Assembly (NCBI GenBank): GCA_017406925.1
Contig: JAFQXO010000014.1
Span: forward strand, 1 to 64,000
Direction: 5' to 3'
Source of the DNA: Eubacterium sp.
Lineage (GTDB): Bacteria; Bacillota; Clostridia; Lachnospirales; Lachnospiraceae
DNA length: 64,000 nt
The notes beneath the pieces are model-generated. The model was not told where the DNA came from, ran no database searches, and worked only from the letters and a program-made list of their open reading frames with translations. Shown here one piece after another: positions 5,074 to 9,073 of the stretch. How positions within the stretch are numbered: position 1 is the stretch's first letter; the number at the start of each line of letters is the position of its first letter. A program made the translations under genes and the position numbers.

Positions 5074-6012
5074 CTATTTGGCATCATCTATATTGCTGTC
5101 TTTGACAATGTAAAGTGGTCTGTTCTTGCTCTCGATATAGATATTGGCGATGTATTCGCCAATGATACCTAACGAAATCTCGATAATACCACCTATAAAC
5201 AGTATTGCTATCAGCATAGTGGCGAAACCGCTCACGTTGATGCCGAAGGCAAGTTTTCTGACTATTGTGACAATGATAAGTAGTGCTGCGATAATCGCAA
5301 AGAAAACGCCTGACGTAGTGAGTAGACGCAGTGGAGCAGTAGAGAATGAAGTCACGCCCAATATTGCGTACTTAACTAATCCCTTGAAGTTCCATTTGGT
5401 AGTACCAGCCGGTCTCTCAACATCTGTATGCTCAATCCATGCAGTGTCGAAACCTACCCATGCGAAAATACCCTTCGAAAAGCGTTGGTTTTCTGTCAAA
5501 CGTAGAACAGCATCGACCATCTGTCTAGACATAATGCGAAAGTCTTGTGAATTCTGTTGTAATCTAACATCTGAGAATTTATTGCTTAGTTTGTAGAAGA
5601 TAGAAGCAAAGCCTGCTCTTATTTTAGGCTCACCCTTACGGCTCTTGCGCATAGTAGCGCATGAATCGTAACCCTCTCCAATCTTCTCAAGCATTTTTGG
5701 TATAAGTGCTGGAGGATGCTGAAGATCTGCGTCCATAACTATCACATAGTCGCCCTTAGAATTGCAAAGTCCAGCATACATCGCAGGTTCTTTGCCAAAA
5801 TTTCTAGCGAATGAAACGTACTTTACATTGTTATGCCTAGCGGCAAAATCTTTCATAATCTTCAATGTATCGTCAGTACTTCCATCATTAACGAAAATGT
5901 ATGTGAAAGTATAGTCTGAAAGCGTGCTAATAACCTTTTCAGACTCTTCGTAGAACATGTTCAAAACTTCTTGCTCATTATAGCAAGGAACAACTATATC
6001 TACAGTCTTCAT
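5074..6012 (-). CDS. Family 2 glycosyltransferase, polyprenyl-phosphate sugar synthase (CsbB/GtrB/DPM1-like)
   Basis: A 312-residue GT2 enzyme. The GT-A domain shows VVPCYNE near the N-terminus, VNDGSTDDT, and the metal-binding MDADLQHPP motif; two C-terminal membrane segments (about residues 220-245 and 260-285) anchor it, as in GtrB and CsbB. It would make undecaprenyl-phosphate-sugar on the cytoplasmic face. The start at 6012 is chosen over an in-frame ATG at 6045 because GGAGG lies five bases upstream. It is the first gene of a minus-strand operon with the GtrA and YfhO genes. Confidence 0.88.
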   Translation of the reverse strand: MKTVDIVVPCYNEQEVLNMFYEESEKVISTLSDYTFTYIFVNDGSTDDTLKIMKDFAARHNNVKYVSFARNFGKEPAMYAGLCNSKGDYVIVMDADLQHPPALIPKMLEKIGEGYDSCATMRKSRKGEPKIRAGFASIFYKLSNKFSDVRLQQNSQDFRIMSRQMVDAVLRLTENQRFSKGIFAWVGFDTAWIEHTDVERPAGTTKWNFKGLVKYAILGVTSFSTAPLRLLTTSGVFFAIIAALLIIVTIVRKLAFGINVSGFATMLIAILFIGGIIEISLGIIGEYIANIYIESKNRPLYIVKDSNIDDAK

Positions 6013-6111
6013 ATCAACCTCCAATTGGACATTATAAGTGCCCATAATCGCCTATTATTTTACTATAAATACGGGCAAAAATAAAGGTTATGGCGAGGGT
6101 GGAAATAAATA

Positions 6112-6358
6112 AGACTACGCCCAGACATAAATCATTTTCATACTGCTAAGTCGTAGATAGTTGCTAAATTCAACATCGTCAAAACACGACGAGTCCGACT
6201 ACAAGAGAGGGAGTTTTCTTTATATGAAAACTCCCTCTCCTTACGTCCGAAATCTGTTTCGGAAAACAGATTTCGCTCTGTGTTTTTTCGATGTTTCATT
6301 TGCAACTATTACTACGCCTATGCAACGTATGCAAATGATTTATGTTTGCTCGTAGTCT
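6112..6358. repeat. 247-bp imperfect palindrome with two internal hairpins, MITE-like
   Basis: Arms of about 79 bases (6112-6190 and 6280-6358) are imperfect inverted repeats of each other. They begin and end with AGACTACG / CGTAGTCT and share CATAAATCATTT, GTAGTAATAGTTGC-like and AACATCG blocks. Between them sit two perfect hairpins: 6205-6218 with 6226-6239 (14 bp) and 6248-6259 with 6264-6275 (12 bp). ATA flanks both ends, which could be a 3-bp target duplication but is weak evidence in AT-rich DNA. The element abuts the argG stop codon. No coding gene is convincing in 6046-6361. Confidence 0.75.
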
Positions 6359-6361
6359 ATA

Positions 6362-7588
6362 TTATTTTTCGTCCTTCTCTAAAGCTTGCTTTTTCATTGC
6401 ACGTACTTGTAATGGTAAACCGAATAGCTGTATAAATCCTTCAGCGTCGTGGTGATCATAAAGGTCGCCAGTAGTGAAAGATGCGAGTGACTCGCTATAT
6501 AGAGAAAATGGAGAAGTAGTGCCGGCCTTGATGATGTTACCTTTGTAAAGTTTGAATTTAACTTCGCCAGTAACATTTTCTTGAGTCTTCTCAACGAAAG
6601 CCTGAAGTGCTTCACGAAGAGGAGTAAACCAAGTACCTTCATATACAACCTGTGCGAGTTTCTCAGCTACAGACTTCTTGTAGTTCATAGTAGCGCGGTC
6701 GAGTACAAGTTCTTCGAGTTGGTCATGAGCTTCCATAAGGATAGTTCCACCTGGAGTCTCATAAACACCACGAGACTTCATACCAACAACACGATTTTCA
6801 ACGATATCAACGATGCCGATACCGTGCTTTCCACCAAGTTCATTTAACTTGCGGATGATATCCGCAACCTTCATCTTCTCACCATTGACAGAAGTTGGGA
6901 TACCTTTCTCAAATGTCATTGTCACATACTCACCCTCATCTGGCGCCTTCTCTGGAGAAACGCCGAGTACGAGTAGGTGATCGTAATTAGGCTCATTGGC
7001 TGGATCTTCTAACTCGAGACCTTCGTGACTGATGTGCCACAAGTTACGGTCACGGCTGTAACTCTGATCAGCAGAGAATGGAAGATCAATTCCGTGTGCC
7101 TTACAATATTCAATCTCAGATTCGCGAGAATCCATATTCCATTTGTCATCACGCCATGCGGCAATAATTTTGATATCTGGAGCAAGGGCTTTAATGCCTA
7201 GCTCAAAACGAATCTGGTCATTTCCTTTTCCAGTAGCACCGTGGCAGATAGCAGTAGCACCTTCTTTGCGCGCAACTTCTACCAACTTGGCAGCGATGCC
7301 AGGTCTAGCCATTGATGTGCCGAGTAAATATTTGTTTTCATAAACTGAGCCCGCCTGTACACAAGGCATAATGTAGTTCTCGCAGAAGTCATCAGTAATG
7401 TCTTCTATATAAAGTTTAGAAGCACCAGAGTATTTAGCTCTCTCTTCCAAACCATCGAGTTCTTCTTCCTGTCCACAGTCGATGCAACAGCAAATAACTT
7501 CGTAGTCATAATTTTCCTTTAGCCATGGGATGATAGCAGTAGTATCAAGTCCACCTGAATAGGCTAAAACAACTTTTTCCTTTGCCAT
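6362..7588 (-). CDS. argG: Argininosuccinate synthase
   Basis: Joins citrulline and aspartate using ATP in arginine biosynthesis. The protein of about 408 residues opens with the PP-loop motif AYSGGLDT (residues 9-16) and keeps family blocks such as [15 protein letters not shown] and [14 protein letters not shown]. The start at 7588 is chosen because GGAGG lies eight bases upstream; an in-frame ATG at 7603 overlaps that ribosome site and is unlikely. It is transcribed away from argC from a shared control region holding ArgR-like palindromes. argH and the carbamoyltransferase gene are not in the window. Confidence 0.97.
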
Positions 7589-7630
7589 AATAACTTCCTC
7601 CATTTAAAAAATCATTCTCAAACGCAACTA

Positions 7631-7659
7631 ACTATACACTAATTGTGCATAAAATGCAA
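7631..7659 (-). promoter_or_regulatory. argG promoter overlapping an ArgR-like half-site pair
   Basis: On the minus strand TTGCAT (7659-7654) and TATAGT (7636-7631) are 17 bases apart. The -35 lies inside TGCATAAAATGCA (7646-7658), which has the TGCAT...ATGCA half-sites of an ARG-box-like operator. Confidence 0.6.
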
Positions 7660-7686
7660 GCATAAATTGTATTTTTATTAAAAATA

Positions 7687-7701
7687 TGCATAATTTATGC
7701 A
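7687..7701. promoter_or_regulatory. ArgR/AhrC-like operator palindrome
   Basis: TGCATAATTTATGCA is a perfect 15-base palindrome midway between the argG and argC promoters. It resembles ARG boxes (TGAAT/TGCAT half-sites with an AT-rich centre), although the half-site spacing is one base longer than the usual four. Confidence 0.6.
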
Positions 7702-7707
7702 AAAGTG

Positions 7708-7736
7708 TTGAATAATATGCAAAAATAATGTATAAT
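7708..7736 (+). promoter_or_regulatory. argC operon promoter with overlapping ARG-box-like site
   Basis: TTGAAT and TATAAT are 17 bases apart. TGAATAATATGCA (7709-7721) overlaps the -35 and matches ARG-box half-sites. Transcription would begin near 7743, so about 290 bases of leader precede argC. Confidence 0.65.
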
Positions 7737-7740
7737 CCTC

Positions 7741-7998
7741 CACAGTGTATTTTTTTGCTCGAGTAATGCATACTTAATGCCTTACTCGAGTGTGGATAGC
7801 ATTTGCTTGTAATTGTCACAAAGATTGTTTGCAAGCTTTGTGGCAATTGCAAGTGAATGGTAATTGTCCACGTCAGTGGACAATGCACGAAGTGCATCCA
7901 CACGAGTGAGTATATATGAAAGATAGGTATAAAAAATACACTGTGAGTACTAGACATAAAACACAGTGAGTGGATTTGCCACACAAATCCACTCACTG
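7741..7998 (+). ncRNA. Highly structured argC operon leader RNA (candidate cis-regulator)
   Basis: Helices seen: P0 7741-7755 with 7931-7945 (15 bp); P1 7758-7766 with 7782-7790 (9 bp, loop of 15); P2 7790-7797 with 7896-7903 (8 bp). P2 encloses P3 7806-7823 with 7836-7853 (18 bp, two G-U), P4 7863-7871 with 7876-7884 (9 bp) and P5 7885-7888 with 7892-7895. P6 is 7964-7978 with 7984-7998 (15 bp, 5-nt loop), 35 bases before the argC ATG. CACAGTG occurs at 7741 and again at 7962, so CACTGTG at 7939-7945 could pair with either. No T-box motif and no U-tract after P6 are seen. The helices are read from sequence; a regulatory role is inferred. Confidence 0.6.
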
Positions 7999-8032
7999 CA
8001 AAAATACCAAATGAAGTTGAAAGGAAACTATC

Positions 8033-9073
8033 ATGATTAAAGTAGGAATTATCGGATCAACTGGATATGCAGGTGCAGAACTTGTGCGTCTTATAGTCGG
8101 ACATCCACAGGCGGAAATTGTGTGGTATGGTTCGCATAGTTATAAGGGTGAAAGTTATGCTGATATCTATCAGAACATGTTTGAAATCGTTGATGCCAAG
8201 TGCATGGGCGAGGATATGGATAGATTAGCGGATGCAGTAGATGTGATATTTACAGCAACACCACAAGGACTTTGCAGTTCGTTGGTGGACGAAGATGTTT
8301 TAAATAAAGTAAAAGTAATTGATTTGAGTGCTGATTTCCGCATCAAGGATGTTGAGACATACGAGAAGTGGTACGGCATTGAGCATAAGAGTCCACAGTT
8401 TATCGATGAAGCTGTGTATGGACTTTGCGAGATTAACCGCGAGGATATCAAGGGTGCGCGTCTTATTGCTAACCCAGGTTGCTACACGACTTGTAGTATT
8501 CTGTCTATTTATCCTCTGTTAAAAGAGGGATTGATTGATCCGCTATCTATTATTGTGGATGCAAAATCAGGAACTTCAGGTGCGGGTCGTGGCTCCAAAG
8601 TTGCCAATCTGTTCTGTGAAGTGAATGAGAACATTAAGGCGTATGGTGTGACAACTCATCGCCATACTCCAGAGATAGAAGAACAACTCTCATATGCAGC
8701 AGGAAAGAGTGTAATTCTAAACTTCACACCACATCTTGTCCCAATGCAGAGGGGCATCCTAGTCACAGCGTATGCAAATCTTTTGAAAGAGATTTCTTAT
8801 AAGGAAGTAAAGGCTGCGTATGATAAGTACTATAAGAACGAAAAGTTTATCCGCGTGTTGAATGAGGATGTAAATCCAGAAACTCGTTGGGTTGAGGGCA
8901 GCAATTACGTGGACATCAATTTCAAGATTGATGAGCGCACGAATCGAATCGTTATGATGGGCGCGCTCGATAACTTAGTGAAAGGTGCAGCTGGTCAGGC
9001 TGTTCAGAATATGAACCTTGTGTTCGGATTAGATGAGGATATGGGACTAGAACAAGTTCCAATGTTCCCATAA
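8033..9073 (+). CDS. argC: N-acetyl-gamma-glutamyl-phosphate reductase
   Basis: NADPH-dependent reduction of N-acetylglutamyl phosphate to the semialdehyde, third step of arginine synthesis. The 346-residue protein has the Rossmann motif GSTGYAGAEL at residues 9-18 and the catalytic cysteine in NPGCYTT (Cys150). KSGTSGAGRG and the histidine-rich THRHTPEIEEQL block follow. AAAGGAA precedes the ATG. It is the first gene of argC-argJ-argB-argD, with argJ 15 bases downstream, and is preceded by a long structured leader. Confidence 0.97.
   Translation: MIKVGIIGSTGYAGAELVRLIVGHPQAEIVWYGSHSYKGESYADIYQNMFEIVDAKCMGEDMDRLADAVDVIFTATPQGLCSSLVDEDVLNKVKVIDLSADFRIKDVETYEKWYGIEHKSPQFIDEAVYGLCEINREDIKGARLIANPGCYTTCSILSIYPLLKEGLIDPLSIIVDAKSGTSGAGRGSKVANLFCEVNENIKAYGVTTHRHTPEIEEQLSYAAGKSVILNFTPHLVPMQRGILVTAYANLLKEISYKEVKAAYDKYYKNEKFIRVLNEDVNPETRWVEGSNYVDINFKIDERTNRIVMMGALDNLVKGAAGQAVQNMNLVFGLDEDMGLEQVPMFP

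Follow-up and report, generated by a model that had tools for sequence, protein, structure and literature searches.

We consider it rather likely that the 5' leader of argC in this Lachnospiraceae genome (1.28 Mb in 15 contigs, 84% complete) is a BOX- or MITE-like repeat that has turned into a structured, constitutive leader. The core of the leader occupies positions 7785-7908 of the window (the whole 64,000-nt stretch that was analysed) and appears, from its match to covariance models, to be a diverged copy of a four-way-junction family dispersed in Lachnospiraceae. The leader is probably not an arginine riboswitch.

A candidate argC promoter was found at 7708-7736 of the plus strand, with the -35 box TTGAAT (7708-7713), a 17-bp spacer and the -10 box TATAAT (7731-7736). 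Of 79 distinct regions upstream of argC, 60, our own included, contain TTGMRT-17-TATAWT; for mononucleotide shuffles the mean is 0.08. This shared pattern predicts a transcript start at about 7741-7744, at the 5' strand of a 15-bp helix, where the preliminary description had placed it. The promoter overlaps TGAATAATATGCA, which differs by one base from TGCATAATATGCA, common in relatives, and the palindrome TGCATAWTATRCA is found in 43 of the 79 argC upstream regions (400 nt upstream searched). This palindrome is a putative ArgR site. At one relative's locus (L094:2884-3005), the argC promoter itself is a long perfect hairpin (TTGCATAATATACA...TGTATAATTATGCAA, -35.6 kcal/mol).

The leader (7741-7998, 258 nt) has a minimum free energy of -120 kcal/mol; the shuffled sequences average -60.9 +/- 3.9 kcal/mol (z -15.1), and none of 200 is as low. 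It is the top plus-strand outlier of the window (200-nt windows, G+C-corrected), and on the minus strand it is outranked by 6151-6350. No stronger outlier was found in a further 320 kb of the same genome, scanned on one strand; the top fold there contains tRNA-Gly and hairpins. The fold is enclosed by the perfect 15-bp outer helix P0, whose 5' strand (7741-7755) lies at the predicted transcript start and pairs with 7931-7945 (pair probability 0.66-1.0). Hairpin P2 follows at 7758-7790. The junction is closed by 8 bp between 7790-7797 and 7896-7903 (stem P1 of the family, pair probability 0.43-0.97) and carries three arms: the long arm hp1 (7799-7860, 62 nt, UUUG loop), hp2 (7863-7884, 9 bp) and a shortened hp3 (7885-7895, 11 nt), which has 4 bp and a GAA loop (GCAC-GAA-GTGC). 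The 15-bp hairpin P4 lies at 7964-7998 (pair probability 0.99-1.0); it and P0 are almost always formed. The helices described earlier are thus all present, and so are the 8-bp closing stem and the 9- and 4-bp arms; only the supposed 18-bp arm has to be redrawn, as in the minimum energy fold it has 24 pairs and a 3-bp tip. P4 is not an intrinsic terminator, since no T-run follows it, nor does one follow any other hairpin of the leader. This agrees with the earlier remark that terminator and T-box signatures are absent, as RF00230 does not match either. The gene itself occupies 8033-9073 of the plus strand, and the AAGGA ahead of it (8021-8025) is unpaired with probability 0.81-1.0. The arms of P4, GTGAGTGGAT/ATCCACTCAC, are similar to the closing stem of the core, GTGTGGAT/ATCCACAC, and P4 is perhaps the remnant of a second element.

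The preliminary description had proposed mutually exclusive helices, in which CACTGTG at 7939-7945 leaves the outer helix and pairs with CACAGTG at 7962-7968. Forcing this pairing gives -122.7 kcal/mol compared with -135.2 kcal/mol, i.e. 12.5 kcal/mol worse, with a pair probability of 0.00, and the proposal is not borne out. A nearer competitor is the pairing of 7784-7788, the 3' strand of P2, with 7903-7907, which lengthens the closing stem; it lies 3.7 kcal/mol above the minimum and has a pair probability of about 0.02. A riboswitch or attenuator would combine two competing folds of like stability with an expression platform. The argC leader does not have this combination, since both alternatives are less stable by the margins given, there is no terminator, and AAGGA is unpaired.

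The dispersed family was reached through a covariance model of the argC leader itself (R1). R1 matched one congener site, the priA-def interval of L177, with E 2.7e-4 and over only part of the model. Another match, ahead of a pheA-type gene of G135, was dropped, as the later model R3 finds nothing there at E<=1. BLAST with the priA-def element gave matches in 15 of the 23 genomes of the genus; the hp3 part was matched in 13, often in tandem, with a spacing of 40-96 nt in the fetched loci. In L192, L195, L202, L215, L219 and L242, hp3 and the downstream stem strand are repeated three or four times at a spacing of 51-96 nt, so that one 5' strand has several candidate partners. Automatic parsing resolved 37 of 50 clusters around hp3 as a junction with at least three branches, a few of them irregular. 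The common architecture is a closing stem (P1) with three arms, namely hp2, hp3 and the long hp1, whose length is nearly constant. The next model (R2), made from the single element L198, had 67 matches at E<=0.01 in 49 loci. The 38 full-length same-genus matches at E<=1e-12 served for training R3, with the window excluded; the weaker ones (E>1e-12, 29 of 67), several of which are partial or tandem pieces, were left out.

In the alignment of these 38 elements, which was fitted to the tested structure and leans toward it, 94.5% of cells pair, compared with 57.9% when the 3' letters are shuffled and 34-39% when the partners are slid. Both sides have changed in 52 of 54 pairs, 25 of which are in hp1 and its tip, and the covariation score is 0.828 against 0.169, with kinship inflating such counts. 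A second set, fitted to R3 and sharing some copies with the first (36 other matches from 34 loci of G013 and L260, and the window), scored 0.796 against 0.186. Covariation holds across dispersed copies at many unrelated genes, and not across argC leaders. Among the 38 members, 35 have an hp1 of 57-63 nt (full range 53-65 nt); its loop is CTTG in 32, TTTA in three and TTTG in none, the last being present in L276. The sequence of the hp1 stem differs in most copies, also within one genome. The length of hp3 is mostly 29-33 nt, and 29 of the 38 members have a GAA loop in it. With an arm that is hypervariable yet self-complementary, the repeat family looks new.

The ratio of G-U to A-C pairs bears on the strand polarity of the arms. 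In the 38-element set it is 25:8 for hp1, 22:3 for hp2, 5:1 for hp3 and 4:7 for P1; in the second set without the window, the respective values are 18:8, 23:10, 14:1 and 6:8. In the window, the modelled hp1 stem has 14 Watson-Crick pairs, one other pair, and a G-U to A-C ratio of 4:0. The excess in the arms favours a folded single strand of this polarity, which may be RNA or single-stranded DNA. For P1, these counts are uninformative.

The window core was found by R2 at 7784-7907 in its own frame (equal to 7785-7908) with 29.7 bits; this match was seen with filters off only, the default filters missing it. R3 scored the core, over model positions 1-138, at 44.6 bits; E was 6e-10 when 12 kb were searched with filters off and 2.3e-8 when 470 kb were searched with default filters, values that are rough owing to short calibration. 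The 97 control loci (578 kb: 80 argC loci, 16 giant-palindrome loci and L178) contained one match at E<=1, with 18.1 bits, in L094. No second match at E<=0.05 was found in the window and 320 kb of other stretches of the same genome. The window hp1, with 62 nt and a UUUG loop, conforms to the family arm of about 57-63 nt with a CUUG- or UUUA-type loop, and 10 of 13 modelled positions of the closing stem are paired, three being unpaired. The arm hp3 lacks the AGCGAGAAGAAGCGAAGCG...CGAGCT motif and has 11 nt instead of about 30; as the motif is absent but the GAA loop is kept, the window copy was classed as divergent rather than canonical. The family model contains nothing that corresponds to P0, P2 or P4. 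The assignment to the family is thus supported by a match to a model built independently of the window, the low control scores, the shared hp1 of 62 nt with its YUUG-type loop and the shared GAA loop of hp3. It is weakened by the truncated hp3 without its motif, the three unpaired positions of P1, the extra helices P0, P2 and P4 and the need to switch filters off for R2 to find the core.

At E<=0.01, R3 matched all 23 genomes of the genus, with 2 to 71 matches each and three in the genome of the window. One of these three, assigned by the order of listing, is most likely L260, located 5 nt after an rpsI-like gene recognised by eye. At E<=1e-4, matches were found in at least 230 of 397 sampled genomes of Lachnospiraceae and at least 205 of 334 genera, with our genome and one congener among them; as eight candidates per genome were scored, both counts of this survey are lower bounds. 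Fifteen copies from other genera, among the highest-scoring, have the same shape, and the hp3 motif can be recognised in nearly all of them. The site between priA and def is filled in G012 and G002, by differing sequences of the same shape, and is empty in G010 and G021, where the ribosome site and def directly follow. Inspection by eye of 7741/7945 and of the printed flanks of family copies showed no target-site duplication. In L253, a canonical copy separates two divergent genes, one argH-like and one tRNA-dihydrouridine-synthase-like, both named by eye.

The placement of the copies was analysed in G013, where 34 of the 71 matches, taken from the better-scoring ones among those listed, were examined. 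The upstream and downstream ORFs have the orientations -/+ (as at argC, with a divergent upstream and a same-strand downstream gene) in 11 cases, +/+ in 13, -/- in six and +/- in three; one element has no downstream ORF. The downstream gene is thus on the same strand for 24 of 33 elements. Among the 17 elements with a same-strand upstream ORF, eight begin at -2 to +7 nt from its stop codon. Of the 24 same-strand downstream ORFs 17 were scanned, and seven of the 17, a raw fraction, are amino acid or aminoacyl-tRNA synthetase genes. They are leuC, ilvN, trpE, a hisJ-family gene, thrS and pheS, identified at curated cut-offs, and a prephenate dehydrogenase-like (tyrA-like) gene below the cut-off. 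The remaining ones include genes for a nucleotide-sugar dehydrogenase, a malic enzyme-like protein, a MATE transporter, a purL-type and a mecA-like protein, and one gene without any family. The trpE, thrS and pheS genes (L324, L326, L332) have a T-box just upstream, and the element directly follows the T-run of its terminator. The idea that hp1 terminates transcription where the element follows a gene, and does not do so in leaders, was considered and dropped, the T-run lengths overlapping too much.

R3 finds no family element in the argC loci of 80 relatives at E<=0.1, with at least 300 nt upstream of argC searched in all of them except L083 (127 nt). A match in L094 (E 0.12, 18.1 bits), just upstream of argC, is the hairpin of the promoter itself. 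The window leader is therefore not an argC-conserved riboswitch. Nor does any relative have an argC leader that folds as strongly: among those with a recognised promoter, the window leader ranks highest (290 nt, -0.40 kcal/mol per nt) and L068 second (230 nt, -0.32 kcal/mol per nt), and the nearest relative L110 (ArgC 84% identical) has a 126-nt leader with -0.11 kcal/mol per nt. The leaders of L068 and L040 have z-scores of -5.7 and -5.5, compared with -10.5 for the window (30 shuffles each), and their folds differ from that of the window. No common structure was seen in the argC leaders of relatives. By BLAST, the leader is single-copy in its own genome and has only short matches in 60 relatives (best non-self E 0.004). 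Its DNA has no match in phages, a 29-base pattern has no exact match in viral contigs, and the one plasmid match, of 47 bases, is irrelevant.

A comparison with Rfam had been proposed earlier, and no family of Rfam 15, RF00230 (T-box) included, reaches its gathering score in the leader or elsewhere in the window. A loose search of 6000-8040 with E up to 10 gave 22 matches, none to the T-box. The best of these, to the microRNA family MIR2600 (29.1 bits, gathering score 98, E 0.0036), was rejected. The elements in 8 and 20 loci of relatives do not match any Rfam 15 family at the gathering score either. No description of the four-way-junction element was seen among the open-licence papers listed, and the terms looked for do not occur in PMC11109978.

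Another extreme fold lies directly at the 3' end of argG. At 6103-6367, a 41-nt inverted repeat (83% complementary) surrounds two long hairpins. The minus strand of this region folds with -128.8 kcal/mol (z -11.6, none of 100 shuffles as low), and the region is single-copy in its own genome. Its shape is like that of a giant palindromic repeat family (L033:4900-5160, L033:4126-4287, L032:4138-4301). The genome of L033, G060, has eight copies that match the full query at 93-100% identity and many diverged ones besides; such palindromes are also numerous in G061 and G062, frequently at contig ends. The giant palindromes near argG and in G060 were not accepted as members of the junction family. 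They form a separate multi-copy family, to which R3 gives at most 11.5 bits in the window.

Several other explanations of the argC leader have to be weighed against a repeat that became a leader. The preliminary description had pointed to a riboswitch or attenuator with mutually exclusive helices, the ligand of which would be arginine, ornithine or N-acetylglutamate. The position in a leader, the very strong fold and the amino acid pathway gene all agree with this idea, and we still regard it as very unlikely: the switch pairing is far worse than the predicted fold, there is no terminator and the ribosome site is not sequestered, neither the family element nor an equally strong leader was found in argC loci of the 80 relatives, and the core domain is found at unrelated genes as well. 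Dispersed copies elsewhere had been named in advance as an observation that would contradict the initial view, and for the core domain they were found. What stands of the initial suggestion of a cis-regulatory RNA is a strongly structured leader matching no Rfam family, and not a switch for argC. A different reading is that the whole family is a class of cis-acting regulatory RNAs (protein- or ligand-bound, or a conditional termination module) with argC as one target. The pairs changed on both sides, the one-strand excess of G-U over A-C in hp1-hp3, the same-strand downstream gene of 24 out of 33 elements in G013, and leuC, ilvN, trpE, tyrA-like, hisJ-family, thrS and pheS genes among the 17 scanned speak for it. 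We nevertheless think it unlikely, since eight of the 34 examined elements of G013 begin at the stop codon of a same-strand ORF (-2 to +7 nt), copy numbers vary from 2 to 71 and empty sites exist, three of the seven amino acid and aminoacyl-tRNA synthetase leaders already have a T-box just upstream, and the sequence of hp1 is unlike in most copies. On the other hand, passive insertion is weakened by the same seven of 17 genes, which could mean real regulation.

It is also improbable that the core consists of inverted repeats without kinship to the family, resembling it only because hairpin-rich four-way junctions are alike. In this case one would expect what is seen with BLAST, which finds no sequence-level match, as well as the missing hp3 motif, the additional P0, P2 and P4 and the failure of R2 at default filters. 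However, 44.6 bits is well above 18.1, the best of the 97 control loci that include 16 loci with giant palindromes, and both the length and the loop of hp1 match the family. The explanation to which we give the least credence is that the palindromes act as DNA, either as a cruciform or as a spacer that binds protein and separates the divergent promoters of argG and argC. P1 has no excess of G-U (4 G-U and 7 A-C in one set, 6 and 8 in the other) and the minus strand folds strongly too; but the predicted start precedes the element and places it within the transcript, and the arms do have the G-U excess, with four G-U and no A-C in the window hp1. Finally, it is conceivable, albeit doubtful, that the family is an undescribed class of structured RNA in Lachnospiraceae, a four-way junction in which the long arm retains length and pairing although most copies have a replaced sequence. 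Its RNA form would be selected because it serves gene expression generally, in leaders and at the ends of genes, and would somewhat prefer amino acid and aminoacyl-tRNA synthetase genes, the argC leader being a recruited and remodelled copy enclosed by an extra 5'-terminal helix.

The kind of element closest to the family, likened by description, is the pneumococcal BOX, which consists of small, interspersed, composite, strongly folded and transcribed repeats with a tandem module of variable number (PMC3049150). In the same source, BOX elements are regarded as mobile but non-autonomous, with a probable effect on the expression of co-transcribed genes. Unlike BOX, the family has one arm that is hypervariable in sequence and constant in length and pairing, its tandem unit consists of hp3 and the downstream stem strand, and it extends over the genera counted above (at least 205 of 334 sampled). 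It resembles MITEs, as treated in PMC3049150, in the inverted-repeat closing stem, high pairing, many copies and presence or absence between relatives. The closing stem provides the terminal inverted repeats, and the dispersed copies the multiplicity, by which a MITE is recognised; but most copies within one genome differ in hp1, which sets the family apart from MITEs. REP palindromes and REPINs are likewise dispersed and extragenic, whereas the family element is a much longer four-way junction. With the T-box (RF00230) the family shares target genes, as trpE, thrS and pheS of G013 carry both; in these leaders the element is a separate structure after the T-box terminator.

If the argC leader arose from such a repeat, a family copy would have entered the divergent region between argG and argC just downstream of the argC promoter, and the insertion or remodelling would have occurred in the lineage of this genome. 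The copy would then form a constitutive 5' leader in the argC mRNA, and arginine control would remain at the promoter. If the leader is active at all, it would most likely shield the 5' end of the mRNA or tune the mRNA level; this is suggested by the 5' end lying within the 15-bp helix and by the open ribosome site. Such a role would parallel, by analogy, the action thought to be exerted by co-transcribed pneumococcal BOX and MITE-type repeats.

A strong fold ahead of a biosynthetic gene is not in itself proof of a riboswitch. The element occurs in at least 230 of the 397 sampled genomes of Lachnospiraceae, with up to 71 matches in one genome, and yet has no Rfam 15 family. Its hp1 arm poses two questions: which factor could read shape and length and nothing else, and how the copies diverge and yet stay paired, whether by selection, template switching or conversion.
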